Shown here in pieces: positions 6,024 through 38,802 of a DNA stretch of 48,777 nt; the first letter of the stretch is position 1, and every line of letters starts with the position of its first letter. The stretch is taken from positions 1 to 48,777 of the forward strand of contig JAIPDI010000042.1 of the NCBI GenBank assembly GCA_021737785.1, written 5' to 3'. The stretch is from Deltaproteobacteria bacterium (GTDB lineage: Bacteria; Desulfobacterota; DSM-4660; Desulfatiglandales; Desulfatiglandaceae). The translations under genes and the position numbers were made by a program. The notes below the pieces were generated by a model. That model was given only the letters and a program-made list of their open reading frames with translations. It was not told the origin of the DNA and did not search any database.

Positions 6024-9847
<3,824 letters not shown>

Positions 9848-9926
9848 ATTCCCTTGGGTATCGGGTATCGGGTGCCTGACGCCTTGGGCCTAACGCCTCG
9901 AGCCTTTTCCCGAAAGGGGGAATTAC

Positions 9927-10316
9927 ATGCGTCTGAAAGTACTGCTTCCCACTGAAGTCCTCCTCGATGAAGAGGTAGGCAAGGTAACCGCAGAGGCGCA
10001 AAATGGATTTTTTTGTCTGCTCCCCGCACATATTGATTTTGTGACGGCCCTGGTCCCCGGACTCCTCTCTTTCGAGTCAAAAGAGGGCGAGGAAATTTTC
10101 GTGGCAGTGGATGAAGGGGTGCTGGTGAAAGAGGGGCAGAATGTATGGGTTTCCACGAGAAACGCCATGCGGGGGACGGAGCTTGGCCGGTTGAGAAAAA
10201 CCGTAGAGGACACATTTAAGGTTCTGGACGATCGGGAAAAGACAGCCCGTTCCGCCATGGCGAAAATAGAGGCCGGCTTTGTCCGGCGCTTTTTGGAGAT
10301 CCAGCGACGGGGGTGA
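9927..10316 (+). CDS. atpC: N-type ATPase epsilon subunit
   Basis: A 129-residue epsilon subunit, part of the central rotor stalk. It starts MRLKVLLPTEVLLDEEVGKV and shows the beta-sandwich pattern LLPAHIDFVTALVPG followed by a helical C-terminus. AAAGGGGG lies upstream of the ATG. The 79-base gap after atpD contains a short GGGTATCGGGTATCGGG tract and CTAACGCCTCGAGCC, relatives of repeats elsewhere in the window. Confidence 0.9.
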   Translation: MRLKVLLPTEVLLDEEVGKVTAEAQNGFFCLLPAHIDFVTALVPGLLSFESKEGEEIFVAVDEGVLVKEGQNVWVSTRNAMRGTELGRLRKTVEDTFKVLDDREKTARSAMAKIEAGFVRRFLEIQRRG

Positions 10317-10329
10317 GGGCCCTTTGTAA

Positions 10330-10620
10330 ATGAAAAAAGATAATCCTAAAGATTTCTCGGAAGAAGTGAGAAAAAAGGAAGCGCGTAAGGTCCAGGCGAG
10401 AAAGGAAGGGGACCGAAGTGTCTGGTTCGGGCTGGGGATGTTCGGCCTCGTGGGATGGTCCGTGGCCATTCCTACCCTGGGCGGCATCGCCATCGGCATC
10501 TGGATCGATAAGACCTGGCCCGGTCCCCGGTCCTGGACCCTCATGTGTCTCGTCATAGGGGTCATCATAGGGTGTGTGAATGCATGGTACTGGGTGAAAC
10601 GGGAGAGCGGGCGTGAGTAA
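10330..10620 (+). CDS. atpQ: N-type ATPase accessory membrane protein AtpQ (AtpI/AtpZ family)
   Basis: The 96-residue protein has a charged N-terminus (KEARKVQARKEGDRS) and two hydrophobic hairpin segments at about 33-57 and 67-88 separated by DKTWPGPRS, the AtpI/AtpZ pattern. AtpI-type proteins assist c-ring assembly and may handle Mg or Ca; AtpQ is the N-ATPase-specific version. Its last codons overlap the start of the antiporter gene by 8 bases, implying translational coupling. Confidence 0.85.
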   Translation: MKKDNPKDFSEEVRKKEARKVQARKEGDRSVWFGLGMFGLVGWSVAIPTLGGIAIGIWIDKTWPGPRSWTLMCLVIGVIIGCVNAWYWVKRESGRE

Positions 10621-11842
10621 ATACGAACTGAATTATCCGCTTGTCATCCTCATGGTCGGCAGCGTCATCTTCCTGGTGATGTTGATCAAATCAGGATTGG
10701 ATCGGACCAGTGTGCCTTCTCTGGTGGGGTTTCTGATCCTCGGTTTCTTCATTCGGCTGGCAGACGATTACCTCGGATTTTTCACCATCGGCTGTGAAGA
10801 GATCTTTGGGTTTTTAGCGCAAATAGGGCTGTTTACGCTTCTGTTTCGGGTCGGGCTGGAGAGCAATCTCCGGGGTCTGCTGGGCCAGCTCCGCCGTGCG
10901 AGCGTCATTTGGATCGCCAATGTGATTATCACCGGCCTTATCGGTTTCGCCACGGCCTTCTACATGCTCCATTACCACTGGGTCGCGAGCCTCGTCATTG
11001 CAACCGCGTTTACCGCCACCAGCGTGGGCATATCCGTGGCCGTATGGGAGGAATCCGGAATGTTGAACACTCCCCGGGGCGAACTCCTGGTCGATGTGGC
11101 GGAAATGGATGATATCTCCGCCGTGGTACTCATGGCCATGCTTTTCGCCGTCCTCCCCAGCCTGAAGTCCGGCTCACCCCCTGACTGGCTGCCAATGATC
11201 TCCAGTGTCCTCGGCCTCTTCTTGATTAAGCTGATCGGGTTCGGAACATTATGTTTTCTATTCAGCCGGTATGCCGAAAAAGGGTTGACCCATTTCTTTC
11301 GAAATCTGGAACCTCCACCGGATCCCATGCTCGTGGTTGTGGCCATAGGACTGATGATTGCCGCCCTGGCAGACCTGCTCGGGTTTTCTCTGGCTATCGG
11401 CGCTTTTTTCGCCGGGCTGGTCTTCAGTCGAGACCCGGACAGTGTAAAGATGGAATCTTCCTTTCTCCCTTTATATGAGCTTCTCAGCCCCTTTTTCTTT
11501 ATTGGAATCGGATTGGCCCTGGACCCCGCCGTTATGGACACAGCCCTGGGAATGGGCGGCATTCTTCTGGTTATGGCCATATTGAGTAAACTGATAGCGA
11601 ACGGCGTACCCATGTTTCTGATGGGCGGGATAGCGGGCGCCCTCCTTATCGGGACGAGTATGGTCCCGAGAGCGGAAATCGCCATGGTGATCATGCACAA
11701 AGGGCTCAGCCTGGGAGAATGGGCGGTCCCTTCCCATGCGTACGCCGCCATGGTGGTGGTCTCAGCCGCCACATGCATCCTGTCCCCCCCGGTGGTGCGA
11801 TCCCTTTTGAATAGCCGGTTTTTGGATGGAGAAGCGCGATGA
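10613..11842 (+). CDS. CPA2-family cation/proton antiporter embedded in the ATPase operon
   Basis: This 409-residue polytopic protein has 11-13 hydrophobic segments over its whole length and the Na_H_Exchanger fold pattern of the CPA2/KefB group. The key pair Asp166-Asp167 in AEMDDISAVVL matches the DD motif of electrogenic Na/H exchangers such as NapA, and an earlier TATSVGISVAVWEE segment fits the crossover-helix region. No TrkA-N domain is present, so it is a bare transporter rather than a full Kef channel. The GTG start overlaps atpQ by 8 bases and its stop overlaps atpR by 4 (ATGA), so it is fully built into the operon. Substrate (Na, Li or K) cannot be read from sequence. Confidence 0.9.
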   Translation: MSKYELNYPLVILMVGSVIFLVMLIKSGLDRTSVPSLVGFLILGFFIRLADDYLGFFTIGCEEIFGFLAQIGLFTLLFRVGLESNLRGLLGQLRRASVIWIANVIITGLIGFATAFYMLHYHWVASLVIATAFTATSVGISVAVWEESGMLNTPRGELLVDVAEMDDISAVVLMAMLFAVLPSLKSGSPPDWLPMISSVLGLFLIKLIGFGTLCFLFSRYAEKGLTHFFRNLEPPPDPMLVVVAIGLMIAALADLLGFSLAIGAFFAGLVFSRDPDSVKMESSFLPLYELLSPFFFIGIGLALDPAVMDTALGMGGILLVMAILSKLIANGVPMFLMGGIAGALLIGTSMVPRAEIAMVIMHKGLSLGEWAVPSHAYAAMVVVSAATCILSPPVVRSLLNSRFLDGEAR

Positions 11843-12111
11843 CGGAGCATATTTCTCATCTCTTATTGGCGTTTGCAGCAGGTGCGGGCATCGGGGCCTT
11901 TTACTTCGGCGGCCTGTGGTGGACGGTCAGGCGACTCGCCACGGATGACCATCCGGCGCGGTTGACCCTGTTAAGCTTACTGGTGCGCACAGGCCTGTCC
12001 CTGGGCGCATTCTATGTGGTCATGGGAGGGGAATGGGAGCGGCTCATGGCTGCGCTGTTGGGCGTCATGGTGATCCGCCTCTTGATGGTTCGGCGGTTGA
12101 GACCGGATTAG
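11839..12111 (+). CDS. atpR: N-type ATPase AtpR membrane subunit
   Basis: This 90-residue protein has three hydrophobic segments (about 6-26, 41-62 and 66-84) and membrane-adjacent arginines, including LLSLLVRTGLSLGAFY, the AtpR hallmark. AtpR is found only with N-ATPases and is thought to interact with the c-ring. The ATGA start overlaps the antiporter stop. The following 200 bases before atpB are repeat tracts. Confidence 0.85.
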   Translation: MTEHISHLLLAFAAGAGIGAFYFGGLWWTVRRLATDDHPARLTLLSLLVRTGLSLGAFYVVMGGEWERLMAALLGVMVIRLLMVRRLRPD

Positions 12112-12116
12112 AGGTC

Positions 12117-12300
12117 GGGGATGAGCAATTTTTTTTCTGACCTCTGGCTTCTGATCTCTGTTCTTTGGGATGTGCGATGTGAGATGTTGTTTCATCTTCC
12201 GCGCTCCGCGTTCCGAGTTCCGCGTTTGGGACTGTTGATTATCAGCTTTCAGCTTTCAGCTTTGAGCTTTCAGCTTTGAGTTTTCAGCTTTGAGTTTTCT
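12117..12300. repeat. Degenerate tandem tracts inside the atp operon (atpR-atpB gap)
   Basis: Three tract types follow one another. They are TCTGACCTCTGGCTTCTGATCTCTG (12137-12161), GGGATGTGCGATGTGAGATGTTG (12168-12190), and about seven units of CAGCTTT or GAGCTTT (12243-12297). The first is nearly repeated between atpA and atpG (15703-15728). Confidence 0.75.
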
Positions 12301-12314
12301 GGAGGTAAGACGAA

Positions 12315-13043
12315 GTGGATTTTATGACCATAAAGGATATCAGCCCGGATCAGGTGATCTTTTGGCAATGGGGACCGGTTTCCATCAACGCGACCATCGC
12401 ATTTACATGGCTGGTGATGGCCCTCATGGTGATCGGTTCCTGGTTGATCACACGGCGGTTGTCAGCGGATGTGCGCCTGTCACGATGGCAGAACCTCCTG
12501 GAAGTCGTGGTGGACGGGATACGAAAGGAGATCCGCGAGATCAGTCAGCAGGAGCCGGACGCTTACCTCTATTTTGTGGGGACCCTGTTTTTGTTCATCC
12601 TGATCTCCAATATCCTCTCCATTATCCCGGGATATGTGGCGCCCACGTCATCCCTCTCCACCACGGCAGGACTGGCCGTGTGCGTATTTGCGGCCGTTCC
12701 TGTTTACGGCATTCTGCGCCGTGGCCTTCGGGGCTATTTAAGGCAATATATCAAGCCCACGCCGTTCATGCTTCCCTTTAACATCATCGGCGAGGTGTCC
12801 CGCACCCTGGCCCTTGCGGTCCGGTTGTTCGGAAATATGATGAGCGGTACAAAGATCGTCGCCATCCTTCTGGCCATTACGCCCCTTATATTTCCCATTG
12901 TCATGCATGCGTTGGGCCTCCTTACCGGCGTGATTCAGGCCTATATCTTTGCGGTGCTCGCCATGGTCTATATTGCATCGGCGACACGGATTCAAGAACA
13001 GAAGAAAGATAACCCGGAACAAGAGAAAGGAGAAGATTCATAA
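12315..13043 (+). CDS. atpB: N-type ATPase a subunit
   Basis: The stator channel subunit, 242 residues with about five membrane helices. The essential helix-4 arginine is Arg170 in ALAVRLFGNMMSG, and a polar C-terminal helix pattern is present. The GTG start is 9 bases after a perfect GGAGG (12301-12305). Its stop shares one base with the start of atpE (TAATG). Confidence 0.93.
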   Translation: MDFMTIKDISPDQVIFWQWGPVSINATIAFTWLVMALMVIGSWLITRRLSADVRLSRWQNLLEVVVDGIRKEIREISQQEPDAYLYFVGTLFLFILISNILSIIPGYVAPTSSLSTTAGLAVCVFAAVPVYGILRRGLRGYLRQYIKPTPFMLPFNIIGEVSRTLALAVRLFGNMMSGTKIVAILLAITPLIFPIVMHALGLLTGVIQAYIFAVLAMVYIASATRIQEQKKDNPEQEKGEDS

Positions 13044-13321
13044 TGGACAGTATTTCGCTAATCGGAATGGCCTCCGTGATCACCGCCGGACTCACCATCG
13101 GCATCGGCGCCATCGGTCCCGCCCTCGGCGAGGGCCGGTCTGTGGCCCAGGCGTTGAGTTCCATGGCCCAGCAACCGGATGAAGCCAACAGGATTACGCG
13201 GACCCTGTTTGTGGGTCTGGCCATGATCGAGTCCACGGCCATTTACGCCTTCGTGGTCTCCATGATTCTGTTGTTTGCCAACCCCTTCTGGGACCATGTG
13301 GTCTCCAAGGCAGGAGGATAA
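13043..13321 (+). CDS. atpE: N-type ATPase c subunit
   Basis: The 92-residue rotor-ring proteolipid has two helices. The ion-binding carboxylate is Glu63 in AMIESTAIYAF, followed by Ser64, Thr65 and Tyr68, as in sodium-binding c subunits. The first helix carries a second carboxylate, Glu30 in GPALGEGRS, where Ilyobacter-type sodium c subunits have Gln. Paired glutamates are a known feature of some N-type c rings. GGAG lies upstream, and the start overlaps the atpB stop by one base. Confidence 0.93.
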   Translation: MDSISLIGMASVITAGLTIGIGAIGPALGEGRSVAQALSSMAQQPDEANRITRTLFVGLAMIESTAIYAFVVSMILLFANPFWDHVVSKAGG

Positions 13322-13324
13322 GCC

Positions 13325-14164
13325 GTGCTCATCGACTGGTTCACCGTCGTCGCCCAGATCGTCAATTTTCTTATCCTGGTGGCGTTGCTCAAATACTTCC
13401 TCTACGACCGGGTCATCCGGGCCATGGACGCGCGCGAGGAAAAGGTCCATTCCCGCCTGGAATCGGCTGAAGAAATGAAAAAGGAGAGTGAAGAGGAGGC
13501 GGAGAACTATCGCCGGAAGAACCGGGAGATTGAAGAGAAACGAAAAGAGATATTGGACAATGCCAGGGAAGAGGCTGAGCATCAGCGTAAGGAACTGACC
13601 CGGCAGGCCCGCAGCGATGTGGAGAACCTGCGGTCAAAGTGGCAGGAATCCGTGCATCGGGAGAAGGCGGCCTTTCTCAGGGAGTTGAAAGAGCTGGCCG
13701 GTCAGCAGGTCTATGCCCTGTCCCGCCGCGCCCTGAGGGATCTGGCCGATGCAGATCTGGAAGAACGGGTTGCCCATGTCTTTGTCCGGGAAATGAGGCA
13801 CGTGAAAAAGGAAGAACGACAAAAGATGGCCGAGGCCGTCAAGGCGGACGGCAACATTGCAACGGTTCGAAGCGGATTCGAAATCCCCGACACCCGACGT
13901 CAAGAGATCACGACGGCCGTTCATGAACTGATTTCAGAGGATGCGGAGGTCAGGTATAAGGAGGATCCTGAGATCATCCTTGGAATTGAACTCAAGAGCG
14001 GGGGAGAGAAAATGGCCTGGAGTCTTGAGGACTATATGCGGGACCTGGAAGACAAGACACGATCGATGTTGAAGCAAGAGGCAAGAGAAGAAGACGCTGA
14101 CGCCGCTGAAGAGAAGAAAGCCAAAGGGGATAAGGGCGGGGGACGAGGAAATGGTGAAGGCTGA
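13325..14164 (+). CDS. atpF: N-type ATPase b-type stator subunit (long form)
   Basis: The 279-residue product has one N-terminal membrane helix (about 6-25) and a long charged coiled coil (about 45-135), then a C-terminal globular part with delta-like features. It is far longer than the usual roughly 160-residue b subunit, and no separate delta gene (atpH) exists in the operon. This matches N-ATPases, in which the b protein probably covers the delta role. The start is GTG three bases after atpE. The 3' end overlaps atpA by 14 bases. Confidence 0.9.
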
Positions 14165-15668
14165 AGCCGATGAGATGGGAGCAGCTCTCCATAACGTGTT
14201 TGATGTTATGGCGGACGCCCTGAAATCCCACCGAACCCGATTGGGGCTTCAGGAGGTAGGCGTGATCAGTTTCCTGGGACCGGGTGTGGTTCGTGTTGCG
14301 GGCCTGCAGGGTGTTCGGTCCCGGGAACTCCTTCGCTTTCCCGGTGAGCGTTTGGGAATGGCCTTTGATGTGGCGCCTCATGAGGCGGGGATTGTACTCC
14401 TTGATGAAAGCGAGGATCTGGGGGCCGGTGATGAGGTGCGGCGCACGGACAGGGTGCTGGACATCCCCGTAGGCGATGACCTGTTGGGACGGGTCATCGA
14501 TGCCCAGGGACGTCCCCTTGACAACCGGGGGCCGATACATGGTTCGAAGCGACTTCCTGTTGAGCGGCCTGCGCATCCCATCATGGACCGTCTCCCCGTC
14601 ACCGTCCCCCTTCAGACCGGGATCAAGGTGGTGGATGCCCTGATTCCCATCGGCCGGGGCCAAAGGGAACTGATCATCGGAGACCGCCAGACAGGCAAGA
14701 CCGCCATCGCCTTGGATACCATCATCAACCAGAAGGACACGGACGTGCTCTGCATCTATTGCGCCATCGGCAAACGCGCCTCGGCCGCGGCAAAGGTCAT
14801 TGCCGATCTGCATCAGGGCGAGGCCATGGACCACAGCATGGTGATGGTGGCCACCGAAGAAGACCCTCCCGGCCTTCAATTTGTCACGCCCTACGCGGCC
14901 ATGACCGTGGGTGAATATTTCATGGAACAGGGGAGGAATGTGTTGGTGGTCTTCGACGATCTCACCCGGCATGCACGGGCATACAGAGAACTCTCCCTTC
15001 TTCTCCGTCGTCCACCCGGGAGGGAGGCCTATCCCGGCGACATCTTCTATATCCATTCGAGGCTCCTGGAACGTTCCACCCATCTTCGCGAGGAACTGGG
15101 CGGGGGGTCGCTGTCGGCCCTCCCGATTATTGAGACAGAGGCCCAGAACATCTCCGCCTATATCCCCACCAACCTGATTTCCATTACCGACGGCCAGATA
15201 TATCTCTCGCCGGACCTGTTCCAGAAAGGGATCCTCCCTGCCGTCGACGTGGGGAAGTCCGTATCCCGCGTAGGCGGCAAGACCCAGCTCAGCGCCTATC
15301 GGGCCGTGGCCGGCGATCTTCGATTATCCTATTCGCAGTTTGAAGAACTGGAGGCGTTTGCCCGGTTCGGCACCCAGTTGGATGAGGATACCCGCAAGAC
15401 CCTGGAACGGGGCCGCCGGGTGCGCGAGGTCCTCAAACAGCCTCAGTATGCCCCCATGGGGGTGGCCGAGCAGATCGCCGTACTGGTGGCCGTGAACGAG
15501 GGGGTATTGGATTCGACCGCCCCTGAAAAGATGGCCGGGGCGGAGAGACGGATACGAGAGGCGGCGACGAAAAACCTGGGCGATCTCTGTCACCGGATCG
15601 AACAGGGTGAAAAAATCAGCCAAAACGATATGGAGGCCCTGAAAGAGACGGCGGCGAATGCGGTTTAG
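14151..15668 (+). CDS. atpA: N-type ATPase alpha subunit
   Basis: The non-catalytic head subunit, 505 residues, with P-loop GDRQTGKT at 177-184. Other family segments include [39 protein letters not shown] and a C-terminal domain beginning [29 protein letters not shown]. The ATG lies inside the end of atpF. A 25-base repeat tract of TCTGACCTCTG type follows before atpG. Confidence 0.95.
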
Positions 15669-29702: not shown

Positions 29703-30155
29703 TCAAAAGCTTCGTTCCAGGTTAATGGTCTTGGACGGGCTGAATCGGTTCGCGCTGAAGAAGCGGATCAGGTTTGAATTATTCCAGTCGACCAGGGTGT
29801 TTACTTTGTGAACGCCGACGCTTTTCAAATGATCCATGAACTCGTTCATCAACTGCTCGCCGATTCCCGTATGCTGGCAGCCGGGGTCGACGCCGATGGT
29901 ATCCAGTCTGGCTTCTTCCTGAAAAATACCATACTCGCCCATGTAAATCTCCCCCATGACAAACCCCACCACCTTCCCGTCTTCATCTTCAGCCACAAGG
30001 GAAGCCGGGAGGTAATCCTTGGACTTGAAAAGCTTTTCAAACTTTGATTCATAATACTCGGGCCTGGAGGCCTTGAGTATCTTCTCGTCGATCTCCACCA
30101 CAGCGTCGAAATCGTCGGCCTTCATGAGTCGAATTTTGACAGCGCTCTCGTTCAT
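29703..30155 (-). CDS. GNAT-family N-acetyltransferase (downstream end of the Bam-type cluster)
   Basis: The 150-residue GNAT protein has the acetyl-CoA loop in IGVDPGCQHTGIGEQLM (about 94-110) and a terminal FFSANRFSPSKTINLERSF. TTGGAGA lies upstream of the ATG. It is 30 bases after the bamF-type gene, so is probably its co-transcribed last gene. Substrate unknown; the same size and domain occur in the GNAT at the other end of the cluster (38350-38802). Confidence 0.85.
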   Translation of the reverse strand: MNESAVKIRLMKADDFDAVVEIDEKILKASRPEYYESKFEKLFKSKDYLPASLVAEDEDGKVVGFVMGEIYMGEYGIFQEEARLDTIGVDPGCQHTGIGEQLMNEFMDHLKSVGVHKVNTLVDWNNSNLIRFFSANRFSPSKTINLERSF

Positions 30156-30185: not shown

Positions 30186-31022
30186 TTACTCTTTTTTGCT
30201 CTTTCTGGCCACCGTCCTTTCCTCCTCAGGAATAGGAGGGGGAACAGGGCCGCCCACGATTCGCGTCACCGCGGCGAAACGGGGGGGACAGGCCTCAAAG
30301 CAGGTGCCGCATTTAATGCACTTCTCCTGATCGATCACATGAATCCGGTTCTTGCCGCCTTCAATTGCCTCTACAGGACATTTCTTGGCGCAAATCATAC
30401 ACGCCTGGCACTTTTCCGGATCAATATAGTACGAAGGCGCTTCACGAAACAAGGCCTCGATTTCGTCGCTGGTGAAAAATCCGTCATAGTCTTCCGGGTT
30501 TGTAAGACGGGTATCCAGTTTCTCCCTTTTTGCCATCTTGATATAAGGGACGAGCTTTGAGACTTCTTCAATTTTGGTTTTCAACTCACGGGTATCGATT
30601 CCTTCGCTCGTGCCCAGGGGGCCTAACGCTTTCACCTTTTTTCCAAAGTCATTCATCACTTCGGCAAAGAGGATCCCATCCCCGGCAGACATGAACCGGA
30701 TGCCCAGCCTTTCCGGGTTCAGCCCGATGTATTCCATTATCCTTTTGCAGAGAAGCGCCATGTTGAGTGCATGGTAATTTCCATGCGTCACATAATTGCA
30801 CTCATTCAAACGGCAACCACCGATAAACACGCCGTCTTGCCCGCTGGAGAAGGCCCTGAGAACAAATTCAAGGTCGACTCTGCCGGAACACATCACGCGA
30901 ATCAGCCTGACATCCGTTGTATATTGCAGTCTGGAAACTCCAGCCAGGTCAGCGGCCCCGTATGCTCACCAATGGCACACAAAACCTAATATTTTGGGCT
31001 TGAATTTAACTCCCGCACGCAT
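30186..31022 (-). CDS. bamF: MvhD-like selenoprotein, BamF type, with in-frame UGA at Sec19
   Basis: Reading from the ATG at 31022-31020 (AAAGGAG upstream) gives FVCHW-U-AYGAADLAGVSR, where U is a TGA codon at 30968-30966. Without it the frame continues perfectly for 278 residues. In MvhD/HdrD-delta proteins this position is Cys of the CNWCSY motif, so the UGA replaces a conserved [2Fe-2S] ligand. The rest has MCSGRVDLEFVLRAF, GCRLNECNY, and two C-terminal [4Fe-4S] motifs (CQACMICAKKCP, CIKCGTCFEACP). MvhD passes electrons to HdrA; BamF is the equivalent in class II benzoyl-CoA reductases. Ordinary calling would start it at residue 43 (30896). Confidence 0.85.
30931..30947 (-). promoter_or_regulatory. 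Possible SECIS hairpin for bamF
   Basis: Beginning 18 bases after the UGA the transcript reads CUGGCUGGAGUUUCCAG, which can form CUGG/CCAG or CUGGA/UCCAG stems with a GGAGUU-type loop. Distance fits bacterial SECIS elements; the fold is unverified. Confidence 0.45.
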
Positions 31023-31145: not shown

Positions 31146-34100
31146 CTACACGTCTCCAACCGCCATATCAAACTGCGACAGGGCCTCTTCCTCCGGACCC
31201 ACCGCATCGATCTGGCTCATGATCTCTTCGTCGGTAAAGTGCTTGAGCCTGATGGCCCCGGTCGGACACTTGGCATTGCAGAGGCCGTCTCCTTTGCAGA
31301 TCACAGGATTCACTACGGCCTTTTTCCCCTGTCGGGTCTCACGAAACTCGACAGCGCCATAGACACAGGCTTCGACGCACGCCCCGCACCCCATGCATTT
31401 TTTCTCATTCACCTCACACACAGATCCTGAGACGGTGACGATATCATTGGAAAGAAGGGTTAAGGCCCTGCCTGCGGCCCCGTAGGCCTGGTTGATGGTC
31501 TCTGATATATGCTTGGGATAATGGGCCGTACCACACAGATAGACGCCTTCCGCACTGAACTCGACAGGCCTCAATTTGACATGGGCCTCTTTGAAAAAAT
31601 CATCCGGTCCCAGAGAGACCTTGAACAATTGCGCAATCTCCTTGTTTCCGGCGGGGGGGATGACCGCCGCGGCCAGGGCAAGGATGTCGGCATCGATGGC
31701 CAGCTTCTCTCCTAAGATGGGATCGGTCACGCTCACCCTCAAGACAGGCCTCCCTTCCGCGGTTGTTGCCTCCACCTGAGGGGCATCCCCGGGCTCCCAG
31801 CGGATGAACTTGACATCCTTATTGGACGCCTCCCGGTAAAAGTCCTCTTTCAATCCGTACGTTCTCATATCCCGAAAGAGAATAGTGATATCCATCTCGG
31901 GATTTTTTTCCTTCAGTTTCAGCGCGTTCTTGACCGCCTGGCTGCAGCATACCCGGCTGCAGTAATTTCTGTCTTCATTCCGGCACCCGACGCACTGGAT
32001 CATCACCAGGTTCCGGCAATTGATGATCTTTTCTTCCTCCCTGGCGATGTGCCCCTCCAACTCCAGCAGGGTCAGGACCCTGTCATCCTCTCCATAGAGA
32101 TATTCGGTCGGCCGGTACTCATCCGCACCGATGGCGATGACGGTGGCGCCATGTTTGATCTCTGTGACCCCTCGGTCCGACGTCACTGTGGTCACAAAAT
32201 TTCCCACATACCCGGTCGCCTCCTTAATAACGGCATCGGTATAGACATGGATCCGGGGGTGCTGGTAGATCTTGCGCACCAGATCCCCCAGATAGGCCTG
32301 GACGTCCAGCCCTTCCAGGGTGGTATGGATTCTCCTGGCCATCCCCCCCAGGTCTGGGGCCTTTTCCACCAGGTAAACCTCGTGCCCCTGGCTGGCGATG
32401 GAGAGGGCGCATGTCATGCCGGCGATACCGCCGCCCACCACCAAGGCCGTCTTGTTGACCGGCAGATCGATTTCCTGCAACGGCTCCAATAGTGCGCATC
32501 GGGCGACCGACATCCGGATAATGTCCTGTGCCTTCCGGGTGGCCTCTTCCGGCTCTTTTGAGTGGACCCAGGAATCATGCTCCCTGATATTGGCCATTTC
32601 GCAATAATATTGATTGATCCCCGCCTCCCGAAGGGTGTCGCGGAACAAAGGCTCAAGGGTCCTGGGGGAACAGGCGGCGACCACCACCCGGTTAAGGCCC
32701 TTTTCCTCGATCATATCGGTTATTTCTTTGGCGGAATTGGTCGCGCAGGAAAAGAGCTGTTCCTGAGCGTAGACCACATGGGGCAAGGTCAGGGAATATT
32801 CAACGGTGGAGGGCACATCGACGATCCTTCCGATATTGGCCCCGCAATGACACACAAAAACGCCTATACGCGGCGCCTCCTGGGCTACATCCTTTTCTTC
32901 CGGATAGACCCTCTCTCTGGTCAGTTTTCCCCGCCGGTAGTCAAGGAATTCGCCGCACTGGGCACCTGCCCCGCTGGCGGTAAAGACCGATTCGGGGATA
33001 TCCATGGGGCCCTGGAAGGCGCCGCTCACAAATATTCCACGTCGGGTGGTTTCCATCAGATTGGAAGGCTCGGCTTGGCAGAATCCGTGTGGGTTGAGGT
33101 CGATCCCGAACCGATCGGCCAGGGCCGTTGCGTCGGCAGGGGGATTCAATCCGACGGATAAGACCACCATATCGAATTCCTCCTCTTTGACGCCCTCGTC
33201 CGGGGTCGAATATTTTACGATGAGATTCTTGGTCTCCGGAACCTCTCTCACAACGGATGCGTAGCTTCTGATAACCCGGATCCCGGGGAGTTGTTCGGTT
33301 CGCTGGTAGTATGGTTCAAAATCCTTGCCGTAGGATCGGATATCGTTATGGAATATGGTGCACTCGGCCTCTGCGTCATGGTCTTTTGCCAGGATCACCT
33401 GTTTCTGGGTATAGGTGCAGCACACAGCGGAACAATAGCTGTTGTCGCCCGGGGTCACCCGTCTGGACCCCACGCATTGAATCCAGGCGATCTTATGGGG
33501 ATGCTTCTTGTCGGACGCCCGCAGGATCTCCCCCTCGTAGGGCCCGGTGGCGCACAAAAGCCGTTCAAAGTCAAGGCTGGTGACCACGTTTGCATATTTT
33601 CCATAGCCGTAATCGCCCCTGATTCCGGGGTCGAACGGTTCATAGCCCGGCGATAGGAGAATCGCCCCCACGTTTATTTCCATCTTCTCCGGTTGTTGCT
33701 CCAGATCGACGGCGTCATTCTGACAGACCGCCTCGCAGATACGGCATTTTTTCTCTTTCAGGTAAAGACAGCTTTCATCAATATACGAGATCAGGGGAAT
33801 GGCCTGGGCGAAGTATATGTGTACCGCCTTATTCTGGGATATCTCCTGATTGAACGGATCAGGATATTGGGCCGGGCAGTATTCCACGCAGGTGCCGCAT
33901 CCCGTGCATTTGTCCTCTTGAATGTACCTCGGCTTCTTGAGCAGGGTGACCTTGAAATTCCCTGCGTCCCCTTCTGCCCTTTCCACTTCCGTATAGGTGA
34001 GAACCTCTATATTCGGGTGCCGGCCGACCTCGACCAGTTTGGGTGAGAGGATTCACATGGAGCAGTCATTGGTGGGATAGGTCTTGTCCAGCTGGGCCAT

Positions 34101-34268
34101 ATGCCCGCCGATGGCAGGGGATTTCTCCACCAGGTAGACCTTGAACCCCGCGGTGGCGAGATCGAGCGAGGCCTGAATGCCGCTGATGCCGCCGCCCACC
34201 ACCATGACGTCTCCAAAATTGCTGTCCTTAAAACTTTTACAAAGCCGCTCAATCTGTTCGTTTTCCAC
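31146..34268 (-). CDS. bamE: HdrA-like flavoprotein selenoprotein, BamE type, with in-frame UGA at Sec72
   Basis: The full product is 1040 residues. It starts at GTG 34268 (AAAGGCGG upstream) with a FAD-binding [17 protein letters not shown], then [27 protein letters not shown], where U is TGA at 34055-34053. HdrA proteins have Cys in this CSxC motif, so the UGA almost certainly encodes Sec. Then follow a ferredoxin motif at 121-131 ([11 protein letters not shown]), a CRICEAVC motif, a second full HdrA-like module ([17 protein letters not shown] at about 608) and a C-terminal ferredoxin pair at about 950-1000. HdrA carries out flavin-based electron bifurcation or confurcation. Standard calling splits it into a 71-residue piece and a 946-residue piece starting at 33986. 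Confidence 0.9.
34020..34037 (-). promoter_or_regulatory. Possible SECIS hairpin for bamE
   Basis: Starting 15 bases after the UGA the transcript reads CUGGUC-GAGGUC-GGCCGG, a 6-bp stem (with G-U pairs) and a six-base loop containing GG. Position and loop match the bacterial SECIS consensus. It also encodes conserved HdrA residues, as usual for bacterial SECIS. Confidence 0.6.
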
Positions 34269-34398: not shown

Positions 34399-35550
34399 CT
34401 AAATCACTTCCGCGATAATCTCTGTAATGTCCTTAACCTCTATCTTTTCATCCATACCCATGGTTATTCTGCTGTCCTCGAACATGGTGATGCAGTACGG
34501 GCAGGAGGTCGCCAGGACCTCAGCCCCGGCCTCCACCGCCTGTTCTATTCTGAGGTCGGAAAATCGTTCACCCTTCTGGGTCTCCATCCACACCCTGCCC
34601 CCTCCCCCTCCGCAACAGAGACTGTCTACCCGACAATCGGGCATTTCACTCAACTGTAATCCGGGCACCTTTTTCAGGACCTCCCGGGGCTCGTCATAGA
34701 TGCCGTTGTGCCGACCCAGGTAGCAGGGATCATGATAGGTGACTTTCTTCGCATACTCCTTTTTCAGCTCGAGTCTTCCCTCATGAATGAGCTGAAATAA
34801 ATATTCGGACATATGGATCACGTCAAAGTTCACACTGAATTCGGGATACTCGTTCTTGAACGTATGGTAGCAATGGGGAGAAGAAACAAGGATCTTTTTC
34901 ACCCCATGATCGATGAAGGTCTTTATGTTTTCCCTGGCCAGGCGTTTGAATAATTCTTCATCGCCCGTCTTTCGAATGCTCTCTCCGCAGCAATTTTCCT
35001 TTGGACCCAGTATCCCGAAATCCACCCCTGCCTGGTTAAGAATACCCGCTGTGGCCACCGCCACCTTTTTTAATCTGGGGTCATAGCTGGGATAGCAGCC
35101 GGGAAAATATAATATCTCCATCCCCTCGGTGAATTCTTTTACAGAATGTCCTTTGGCCCAATCCCCCCTCTTGGCGCGTTCTTCACTCAAGGTGTTGCCT
35201 TCACCGACAAGACTTCCTCTGATGGTGCGGATAGGCTGGACCGCCTTTGGGAAGACACCGTATTCCGTGGCAATCCTCCGCAGGGCGATTCCGGAGTCTA
35301 TCTGCTGTACATCCCTCGGGCACTGCTGGGGGCATCTTCCGCAGGTCGTACACAGCCATATATCTTCACTTTCAATATCCGTCATACCGAAGGTCGCCTG
35401 CCGGACGATCTTGCGCATACTGAAGTTCCGCACCCGATTCCACGGGCAGACCACATCGCACAATCCGCATTGAAAGCATCTCTTGAAGGCGTCTCCACCG
35501 CTCGCCTTGATGACATCAACGATCTCTTTGTAATCAGCTACATTCTCCAC
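34399..35550 (-). CDS. bamD: HdrD-like iron-sulfur protein, BamD type
   Basis: The 383-residue protein has an N-terminal pair of [4Fe-4S] motifs, CFQCGLCDVVCP (about 25-36) and CTTCGRCPQQCP (about 67-78). Two cysteine-rich CCG domains follow, with NCCGESIRKTG and SLCCGGGGGRVWMETQKGERFSDLR, as in the catalytic subunit of heterodisulfide reductase. In Bam clusters this protein is thought to be an electron-transfer subunit. The start is GTG with AGAGGA upstream. It lies between bamC-type and bamE-type genes. The name clashes with the unrelated outer-membrane BamD at 45120. Confidence 0.78.
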   Translation of the reverse strand: MENVADYKEIVDVIKASGGDAFKRCFQCGLCDVVCPWNRVRNFSMRKIVRQATFGMTDIESEDIWLCTTCGRCPQQCPRDVQQIDSGIALRRIATEYGVFPKAVQPIRTIRGSLVGEGNTLSEERAKRGDWAKGHSVKEFTEGMEILYFPGCYPSYDPRLKKVAVATAGILNQAGVDFGILGPKENCCGESIRKTGDEELFKRLARENIKTFIDHGVKKILVSSPHCYHTFKNEYPEFSVNFDVIHMSEYLFQLIHEGRLELKKEYAKKVTYHDPCYLGRHNGIYDEPREVLKKVPGLQLSEMPDCRVDSLCCGGGGGRVWMETQKGERFSDLRIEQAVEAGAEVLATSCPYCITMFEDSRITMGMDEKIEVKDITEIIAEVI

Positions 35551-35585: not shown

Positions 35586-36119
35586 CTATGCCTTCATCGA
35601 CAACCGGGCAACGGCATCCATGAGTTCCTGGGCCCCGTACTTCTGGGCCAGCGATTCCAACCCGATATCCAATTCCTTCTGCTCTTCCGCTTCTTCCGCT
35701 TCCTCTTCCCTTTCCTCGTACGTCAGGGCGTCCACCAGACACCACTTCACGCACAAGGGCTCTTCTTCGCCTTCGCACATATCACATTTAAGCGGAAGAC
35801 CCGAGTCCGGCTCCTTGAAAATGTCCCTGGATGGGCAGGAGGCCCTGCAGAAGGCGCACTCTTCGTATTCCTTCCCGTCAATGACATACTTGTCTCTGCC
35901 CATGCATTCGGCTGCCGTATACTCGCCCGCGTATACCGGGACATAGATGTCTCTGAGCGGATAACGGATGATCCGAATACGGGACCTGGCCGGATTATTG
36001 CTGCTGTATTTCGGCTGCGCGTGAAAGGCCGAGCAGACCACCTCGCAGGCCCGGCACCCGTTGCACAGATCAGCATTGACTTTTATGGTCTTGATGATTT
36101 TCTTGTTTTTATCACCCAC
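35586..36119 (-). CDS. bamC: Polyferredoxin-like [4Fe-4S] protein, BamC type
   Basis: This 177-residue ferredoxin has cysteine groups CNGCRACEVVC (about 18-28), CAFCRASCPSRDIF and CDMCEGEEEPLCVKWC, enough for about three [4Fe-4S] clusters, followed by an acidic Glu-rich helix. BamC forms a heterodimer with BamB in the known class II reductase and feeds it electrons. The GTG start has GAAGGAGG upstream and lies 2 bases after the bamB-type stop, so the pair is tightly coupled. Confidence 0.8.
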   Translation of the reverse strand: MGDKNKKIIKTIKVNADLCNGCRACEVVCSAFHAQPKYSSNNPARSRIRIIRYPLRDIYVPVYAGEYTAAECMGRDKYVIDGKEYEECAFCRASCPSRDIFKEPDSGLPLKCDMCEGEEEPLCVKWCLVDALTYEEREEEAEEAEEQKELDIGLESLAQKYGAQELMDAVARLSMKA

Positions 36120-36121
36120 GG

Positions 36122-38131
36122 CTATGCCTCCTTCTCTTTTTCCGCCGAGGTCTCCTGGGAAAGGGCATCCGGACGATCTGAATAAACCCCTCTCTTTTCA
36201 AAATCTTCGAATACGTAATCCAGACCCAGTTCATGTAAAGACGCTTGGGTAGGAATCCCCTGCTCATTCCATCCCTTGAATTGGTAGTACGTATCCAGGA
36301 GCTTCTCTTCAAGCTCGGGAAATCTTTTCTTCCAATGATCCTTCGGAGGCTTCTCGTCTTTTCTCCGCATGCCTCTTCTTATATTATTGGCCCTCACCAG
36401 CGTCCGGTATCTCTTAATGGCCTGCGTCAGCAGTTCTTCATCCATCTCGATACCGGCCCCTGAGGAGATGAATTGAGGATAATTGTGCATATGATAGGGC
36501 GGTTTCAGAGGGAATGACGACAGACCCGCGCACATGCCGAGGGCGTCATCGATATAGTGCATCCGCTCCTGCCAGTCCACAATATCACAGCACATTTCAG
36601 GGGTCGGATAATAGGGGATGGAATTTTCCCCCCGCAGCTCCCAGTCCAGAAAATACTGTTTGAACTTCTCATCCGGCACCTGGAACCAATCCTTGACAAA
36701 GGCCTCCCGATCCTCCCTCGTGGGGAAAGGGGCCTGGGGAAACTGCCCTTCAATCTGGGTGATGTTTATCTTCTCGCCGGTGGCATACATGAGGAAATAG
36801 ATGGGATTCAGCATGGACAGTTTGAGGGGGAGCTGCTCATGTTTCTTGATATTATTATGCGCATAGGCCTCCGCCCCCTTGCCGATCTCTTTGGCCGCCC
36901 AGTAGGTCCCGTTAGCCAGGACATCTCCGATCCCTTCCCGACGGACAATCCGGTCAAGGAGCCAGTAAAATCTCCCCTCGTTGTCCGACGGCATTCCAGG
37001 AAAATCATCATCCGTTAAGATTCCGTCCTCGTAGAGCTCGAGGGCGAAGGCCATCACCTGAGGGGTTGAAAATCCGTCCACCCCGTACTCCGTCGCACTC
37101 TGGGCAATGCCCAGACCGAATTCCAGGTCTGCGAAGGCCGCCATGGTATAGGTCAGTTTGGAGAAGCATTTCATCATGTAGGTGGGAAGGCCCGGAGGGG
37201 AAATGGTGGCCCCGCATGTCATGGGACAGTTGTAGCAGCTGATCAGCCGCGTCCGCATGCTGTCCAGGGTCTGCGCCCACTCCTGTGCGATCTCTTCGTT
37301 CCAGAAATCCTTTTGGCGGATACGTGAATTGCCCCACATGAAATTCTCGGTATGCCACTTCTCGTCATGGACCTTCATCTCCTGCGGCGATCCAAGCCCT
37401 GCCAGAATGGGCATGACCCCTGGAATAGGATGTTCATTGCGCCATTTGATATACTCCAGGACCTGATTGCAGAGTTCCATGAATTCTTCCGGTCGGGCAA
37501 CATTGATGTCTTTGGTCCCCCGAACCGCAACGGCCTTGACCCCTTTGTCGCCCATAACGGCCCCGATGCCTCCCCGGCTGGCGCTGGACCTCCCCTGCTC
37601 GATGGAAGCAAAGTAGACCCTGTTTTCACCGGCCAACCCGATCGCCGCCACCTGGGCCCTCGGCTCGTTCAACTCCTGTTGAATCAATTCCGCGGATTCA
37701 ACCGCGCCTTTCCCTTTCAGGTGAGAGGCGTCGCGTATTTCCACCTTGTCATTGTTGATCCACAAATAGACCAGGTCCGGGGACTTGCCGCGAAGGATCA
37801 CCTTGTCATATCCCGCATGCTTCAATTCCGGGGCCCAGAATCCCCCCATCATGGAAAACGCCATCAACCGGGTCTGAGGCGAAATAGTGGAAATAATGGT
37901 ACGGTTGCATCCGGTTGCAGGCGTGCCGCATAAAAGACCGGCGCCGAATATGAGTAGATTGTCCGGAGAAAACGGGTCCACTTCAGGGGGGACCCGATCC
38001 CACAATATCTTGGCATTGGTGCCCAGTCCCCCCAGGTACAGTTCGGTGTCTCTCGGGTCGGTTTCCACCCGCTCGATGTTTCCCCGGGTGAGATCAATTT
38101 CTAAATTGAATCCTGTCTCTGCATACCTCAT
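36122..38131 (-). CDS. bamB: Tungsten aldehyde:ferredoxin oxidoreductase-family enzyme, BamB type
   Basis: The 669-residue enzyme belongs to the AOR family: N-terminal MRYAETGFNLEIDLTRGNIE, the cofactor-binding stretch around GLLCGTPATGCNRT, and [4Fe-4S] ligands in SCYNCPMTCGA (about 298-308) plus the later Cys in DDALGMCAGLSSFP. BamB is the catalytic subunit that reduces the benzoyl-CoA ring to a cyclic diene without ATP. I assign BamB rather than an aldehyde oxidoreductase because of the directly following bamC, bamD, bamE and bamF-type genes and because the sequence looks BamB-like to me. The start has AAGAGG upstream. Other AOR enzymes cannot be excluded from sequence alone. Confidence 0.8.
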   Translation of the reverse strand: MRYAETGFNLEIDLTRGNIERVETDPRDTELYLGGLGTNAKILWDRVPPEVDPFSPDNLLIFGAGLLCGTPATGCNRTIISTISPQTRLMAFSMMGGFWAPELKHAGYDKVILRGKSPDLVYLWINNDKVEIRDASHLKGKGAVESAELIQQELNEPRAQVAAIGLAGENRVYFASIEQGRSSASRGGIGAVMGDKGVKAVAVRGTKDINVARPEEFMELCNQVLEYIKWRNEHPIPGVMPILAGLGSPQEMKVHDEKWHTENFMWGNSRIRQKDFWNEEIAQEWAQTLDSMRTRLISCYNCPMTCGATISPPGLPTYMMKCFSKLTYTMAAFADLEFGLGIAQSATEYGVDGFSTPQVMAFALELYEDGILTDDDFPGMPSDNEGRFYWLLDRIVRREGIGDVLANGTYWAAKEIGKGAEAYAHNNIKKHEQLPLKLSMLNPIYFLMYATGEKINITQIEGQFPQAPFPTREDREAFVKDWFQVPDEKFKQYFLDWELRGENSIPYYPTPEMCCDIVDWQERMHYIDDALGMCAGLSSFPLKPPYHMHNYPQFISSGAGIEMDEELLTQAIKRYRTLVRANNIRRGMRRKDEKPPKDHWKKRFPELEEKLLDTYYQFKGWNEQGIPTQASLHELGLDYVFEDFEKRGVYSDRPDALSQETSAEKEKEA

Positions 38132-38349: not shown

Positions 38350-38802
38350 TCAACCCTCCAATTCTTTCCGGAGATTGATGAAGTTACTCCGGTCAAAACC
38401 CAGCGTCTTAAAAAAGGACAAGAGATCCACAGAATCCCACCGGACCGAGGTATAGATGTCGTTGATCCCCTTTTCCCGGTATACCGCCAGTATGGCCTCT
38501 GCCAGTTTTTTTCCGATACCCCGGCCCATAAATTTGGGGTCAACGCCGAGGGTAGCGATCCAGGCCCCCTTTTCAAGCCCGAAGCCGCCGAACACGATGT
38601 AGCTGATCATGTAGCCGACCACCTTCCCATTGTTCACGGCCACGAAGCTGGCATCTTCGCCCTTTCGTACCTGGTCCTCAATAATATATCTGAAATCAAT
38701 GGTTACGGGTGACTGGGTAATGGCCGACTGAATCCTGCTGATATCAGCGGCATCCCCGACCTGAATCCTCCTGATCTCCAGATTTTCAACCTGTTCATTC
38801 AT
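38350..38802 (-). CDS. GNAT-family N-acetyltransferase (upstream end of the Bam-type cluster)
   Basis: The 150-residue GNAT protein has IATLGVDPKFMGRGIGKKLAEAIL (acetyl-CoA loop, about 81-105) and a C-terminal LLSFFKTLGFDRSNFINLRKELEG. It starts 16 bases after the DUF2080 gene and 218 bases before bamB, on the same strand. It resembles the downstream GNAT in size and C-terminal layout. Possible roles are lysine acetylation control of the cluster or of CoA-linked enzymes; neither is shown. Confidence 0.85.
   Translation of the reverse strand: MNEQVENLEIRRIQVGDAADISRIQSAITQSPVTIDFRYIIEDQVRKGEDASFVAVNNGKVVGYMISYIVFGGFGLEKGAWIATLGVDPKFMGRGIGKKLAEAILAVYREKGINDIYTSVRWDSVDLLSFFKTLGFDRSNFINLRKELEG

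Follow-up and report, generated by a model that had tools for sequence, protein, structure and literature searches.

The locus examined here raises the question of whether an in-frame TGA in an HdrA-like gene ends the protein or encodes selenocysteine (Sec), and which enzyme the product would serve. The gene, bamE (31146-34268), lies on the minus strand of the 48,777-nt stretch of DNA that was analysed as a whole (the window). Read from GTG 34268 to TAG 31148-31146 with TGA as Sec, it translates into an HdrA-like protein of 1,040 residues with two FAD/thioredoxin-reductase-like domains and Fe-S sites, matched by Pfam and NCBIfam models and by HdrA chains in the PDB. The sole in-frame TGA is codon 72 (34055-34053), preceded by 71 codons and followed by 968; translation reproduced both counts as the initial annotation had given them, and the residues flanking the codon also read as stated there. 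HdrA homology is found on each side of the TGA (Pfam, PDB HdrA chains), which occupies the second Cys position of the PTNDCSMC (NDCSMC) motif. Alignment with solved HdrA chains likewise places the second Cys of their CSxC motif at this codon, in keeping with the earlier proposal that the TGA stands at a conserved Cys. A translation start at GTG 34268 is supported by the 29 of 80 relatives that match from residue 1, where the start position holds GTG in 20, ATG in six and TTG in three, a count restricted to matches reaching that residue and thus somewhat favouring support for GTG.

These relatives, all named loci, rank highest among the 262 retrieved with one protein query, a set biased to close kin. 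Codon 72 is TGA in 71 of them and Cys in nine. An initial motif scan read the site in all but 11 of the 80 loci, and a looser scan recovered seven of these; a later pattern matched 78, and the remaining two (L135 and L140) were read by tblastn as Cys. All 72 TGA-bearing frames (the 71 named loci and the window) continue past the TGA for 900 codons or more with no further stop, and by record title the TGA forms stem from several phyla. We also searched 20 relative genomes, four of which gave no match at 68% identity or more. Among the 18 site-covering matches at or above that identity, 15 contain one TGA and three none, counted anywhere within the match; the 15 include the matches from both genomes of the same genus.

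The RNA directly past the UGA, within the coding frame, folds best into a hairpin with a 7-bp stem and an AGGU apical loop (34037-34020, minus strand), 15 nt past the TGA. The initial annotation had described a 6-bp stem with a GAGGUC loop; its 15-nt spacing is retained, while its stem and loop correspond to the same hairpin minus the inner G-C pair and are replaced by the 7-bp fold. The folding energy of this hairpin is no better than that of dinucleotide shuffles (z = 0.08; an equal or better fold in 92 of 200 shuffles) and was rejected as evidence, so that support for a SECIS element rests on synonymous codon conservation. Across the 72 frames, the mean codon homozygosity of codons +6 to +11 (CTG GTC GAG GTC GGC CGG) is 0.99, which ranks first among the 395 six-codon windows scored along the gene; the medians for the amino acids concerned are 0.33 to 0.63. 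All seven pairs can form in 78 of 81 TGA sites (71 named loci, the window and nine paralogues from the same genome) and the AGGU loop is present in 77. The sites short of seven pairs are own-genome paralogues (the second sites of L053 and L055, and L060), with ATGT at the loop position; L053 folds best into a hairpin that lies a few bases further downstream. Three of nine Cys sites (seven named and two own-genome, L135 and L140 excluded) form all seven pairs, and one carries the AGGU loop. Judged by their near-invariance at synonymous positions, codons +6 to +11 of bamE are the SECIS.

The same genome contains matches to SelA, SelB and SelD above the family cut-offs, together with a tRNA-Sec scoring 73.6 bits (cut-off 47) whose TCA anticodon was identified by ARAGORN. 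A second match to the tRNA-Sec model also exceeds the cut-off (C81, 50.2 bits). Among 14 control genomes, two passed the cut-off for SelA, two for SelB, two for SelD and five for tRNA-Sec; given the second match and these five controls, it is the best match and not the cut-off that carries the tRNA-Sec evidence. The SelD match contains one in-frame TGA, counted anywhere along its length. The search for selA, selB, selC and selD that the initial annotation had proposed therefore recovered all four components, and a genome lacking selB or selC, which was named there as an argument against selenocysteine, is ruled out. Taken from sequence, these data indicate that UGA 72 of bamE is almost certainly decoded as selenocysteine, and SelB-mediated insertion at this codon is strongly supported.

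Other readings of the codon fare poorly. An in-frame TGA is a stop by default and a draft genome could contain broken genes, so that bamE might carry a nonsense mutation and be a pseudogene in this genome; against this stand the same TGA in 71 of the 80 named relatives and in several phyla by record title, the 72 of 72 TGA-bearing frames that stay open for at least 900 further codons, and the synonymous constraint on the SECIS codons. We regard a broken gene as highly improbable, and the conservation of the TGA upholds the earlier view that a pseudogene does not fit. A sequencing or assembly error, the true codon being TGC or TGT, might be entertained for a draft assembly in 96 contigs, the more so as Cys forms are present in relatives. 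Yet two genomes of the same genus, at 90% and 86% identity, both contain one TGA inside the bamE orthologue (counted anywhere in it), and the named loci that share the TGA argue in the same direction, which makes a read error vanishingly improbable. Both the pseudogene and the error were rejected on this conservation. There is also the case in which UGA is read through or recoded to a residue without selenium, by a suppressor tRNA or a changed code. Changed UGA codes and suppression do occur in other bacteria, but TGA terminates nine of the 29 window genes with Pfam matches; as an ordinary stop for these genes it led us to reject a changed genetic code. The presence of SelA, SelB, SelD and tRNA-Sec, and Cys as the only replacement of the TGA among the 80 relatives, as expected for Sec, further speak against selenium-free recoding, which we consider very improbable.

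With selenocysteine as the preferred reading of codon 72, the Cys forms of BamE can be placed relative to the Sec forms. In a tree, the nine Cys forms make up a single clade (support 96) nested in the TGA forms, and this points to a single change from Sec to Cys within the BamE set; the tree was built by a quick method with a midpoint root only, and has long branches among own-genome paralogues. L119 was excluded from alignment A1 owing to a stop within its stretch. A Cys nine residues after the site (+9) occurs in 10 of 11 Cys forms, nine of the 11 belonging to one clade, and in none of 81 Sec forms. The extra Cys was observed in the HdrA/BamE Cys forms L092, L098, L113, L119, L125, L135, L138, L140, L142 and L051. 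The archaeal solved Cys HdrA chains shown in the alignment have Val at +9, so the association of Cys at the site with Cys at +9 is not a general rule. In this set Sec72 and the +9 Cys appear mutually exclusive. A tentative reading, of low probability, is that residue 72 works together with a partner thiol (or as an Fe-S ligand) and that Sec dispenses with this need.

Downstream of bamE on the minus strand lies bamF (30186-31022), which codes for a predicted MvhD/FlpD-like protein of 278 residues with a C-terminal ferredoxin domain (Pfam FlpD E 2.6e-44 with the TGA read through; MvhD chains in the PDB). It contains an in-frame TGA at 30966-30968, the putative selenocysteine codon 19 within the motif FVCHWU. 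In the 80 named loci this motif has TGA in 63 and TGC in one (L092), and 16 gave no motif match. A predicted SECIS hairpin, CUGGA-GUU-UCCAG, lies past the TGA at 30931-30943 (minus strand) in conserved codons, +8 to +12 (GCT GGA GTT TCC AGA) each being shared by 61 to 64 of the full-length sites, which number 64. The bam operon appears to hold two tandem selenoprotein genes, bamE and bamF, the Sec of bamF being absent from the initial annotation.

The genes directly upstream of bamE, all on the minus strand, are those of BamD, BamC and BamB. bamB (36122-38131) encodes a member of the aldehyde ferredoxin oxidoreductase family, a subunit of class II benzoyl-CoA reductase that matches the solved benzoyl-CoA reductase of G. 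metallireducens (PDB 4z3w; 1,248.6 bits, residues 1-651). bamC (35586-36119) encodes a ferredoxin-like Fe-S subunit with weak Fer4 matches below the Pfam cut-offs, and bamD (34399-35550) an HdrD-like CCG-domain Fe-S protein (Pfam CCG E 1.4e-37). Of the 80 named loci, 54 contain a match to BamB at E <= 1e-10 at any position, 55 to BamC, 69 to BamD and 77 to BamF, a few of these matches being distant (the BamB match of L092 has 28% identity) and many loci stopping at contig ends. Elsewhere in the genome, a match to TIGR03200 (dearomat_oah; 558.5 bits, cut-off 464.45) marks what we take to be the ring-opening hydrolase BamA. Because of the BamB match and the TIGR03200 match, we place bamE in the benzoyl-CoA pathway; adjoining BamB, BamC, BamD and BamF, it is very probably the BamE gene of a class II (ATP-independent) BamBCDEF operon with a role in benzoyl-CoA reduction. 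A Sec-containing HdrA/MvhD module serving another oxidoreductase would leave Sec decoding untouched and compete with this role alone. It gains some weight from the 44 HdrA matches in the genome and from the BamB match in only 54 of the 80 relative loci, one of them the distant match in L092 and the gap partly due to contig ends. However, bamE directly follows bamB, bamC and bamD, the BamB match to the solved enzyme spans residues 1-651, and the TIGR03200 match is above its cut-off; service to another oxidoreductase is in our judgement improbable. Further along the window, genes at 8423-15668 on the plus strand encode ATP synthase subunits (two ATP-synt_ab, ATP-synt_A and ATP-synt_B) with a Na+/H+ exchanger among them (10613-11842), an arrangement that resembles an N-type ATPase operon. 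The bam genes are flanked on both sides by GNAT acetyltransferase genes identified by Pfam, one upstream of bamB (38350-38802, minus strand) and one downstream of bamF (29703-30155, minus strand), whose products are 29% identical to each other by blastp; an N-acetyltransferase is listed as bamK in Geobacter metallireducens in the cited part of PMC1924859.

Further candidates for Sec are found in the same genome. At least ten HdrA sites with TGA and two with TGC are present in the window and 12 further stretches. Besides bamE, nine HdrA TGA sites were seen at the NDCxxU position (L052-L056, L059 and L060), several of them within reading frames some 1,500 codons long. Of the 14 FlpD/MvhD matches, seven include TGA, and two distinct positions in the family are affected. 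In the paralogues L143-L147 and L150 the TGA falls at CTWU or CNFU, and at GGUHxGxCHY or SGUHxGDCHY; the L146 copy has TGA at both family sites.

BamE has a FAD/thioredoxin-reductase domain with the HdrA motif and Fe-S sites, and among PDB HdrA chains it matches 8rvu with E 8.1e-196. Its score against the NCBIfam HdrA2 model is 946 bits, below the model's own cut-off of 1100. The chains 8rvu and 5odc, which we take to be the HdrA of Methanothermobacter and Methanothermococcus complexes, belong to the same family by sequence and share the CSxC motif, and the equivalents of their E356 and K409 are kept in BamE. They have Cys at the site and about 650 residues, whereas BamE has two thioredoxin-reductase-like domains; in this it resembles the 'type II' HdrA described in part of PMC12054007. 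E235 and K289 of BamE correspond to E356 and K409 of Methanothermococcus HdrA, a mapping made by hand from the alignment with the HdrA chains, whose numbering was taken as that of PMC12054007; neither residue varies among 25 aligned sequences. Passages of that paper link the two residues to flavin-based bifurcation. An AlphaFold2 model from 25 sequences has a mean pLDDT of 77 but falls below 50 at residues 57-74, so the structural role and geometry of residue 72 are not visible in it.

Within the class II benzoyl-CoA reductase complex, BamE would then be the HdrA-like subunit that carries flavin and Fe-S centres. The ribosome would start at GTG 34268 and reach the UGA at 34055-34053, where SelB with Sec-tRNA(Sec) and the hairpin at 34037-34020 would put Sec in the place of the Cys of NDCSMC, and would then continue to residue 1,040. 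Sec72 is predicted to sit in the N-terminal FAD domain, which retains E235 and K289. By analogy with known HdrA complexes, BamE probably relays electrons among BamF, BamD/BamC and BamB by flavin-based bifurcation or confurcation, and benzoyl-CoA reduction could thereby proceed free of ATP. Bifurcation by BamE itself is favoured, with modest confidence.

Selenocysteine in HdrA has precedent. HdrA is among the bacterial selenoprotein families tabulated in 2006, in a section of PMC1794560 that gives seven Sec-HdrA in Syntrophobacter fumaroxidans, compared with at least ten Sec-HdrA sites in the present genome; the initial annotation was thus right that Sec HdrA is known in some anaerobes. Sec-containing HdrA and MvhD are reported for Desulfobacterium autotrophicum in part of PMC2702500, and a 2026 review gives the HdrA motif as CxxU in the relevant passage (PMC13188914). 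As these three sources describe the family in the parts cited, its members carry Sec at CxxU, occur in several copies per deltaproteobacterial genome and are paired with MvhD/FrhD selenoproteins, all of which the present case shares; it differs in lying within a benzoyl-CoA reductase operon. The closest parallel is BamE of Desulfococcus multivorans DSM 2059 (dmul_C24500/10), likewise from a class II cluster and listed in a portion of PMC5109826 as a gene with a UGA upstream of a SECIS, a comparison made by description only. As outlined there, the D. multivorans cluster differs in having two bamB-D copies separated by bamOP. The present BamE is therefore well supported as a further case, Sec in HdrA and in BamE being already known from what these sources present (PMC1794560, PMC5109826).

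Default annotation would truncate or split BamE and BamF here, and the same risk extends to many relatives, with the BamE TGA in 71 of the 80 loci and the BamF TGA in 63. The HdrA of Methanocaldococcus was overlooked in this way, its Sec codons having been read as stops, according to part of PMC12054007. The conserved codons +6 to +11 of bamE could be used as a pattern with which to look for Sec-BamE genes. If the tentative exclusion of Sec72 and the +9 Cys is true, BamE and its Cys clade would be natural experiments on the role of Sec in HdrA. Correct models of both genes are important when anaerobic aromatic degradation is to be read from metagenomes, and link the benzoyl-CoA pathway to selenium supply.
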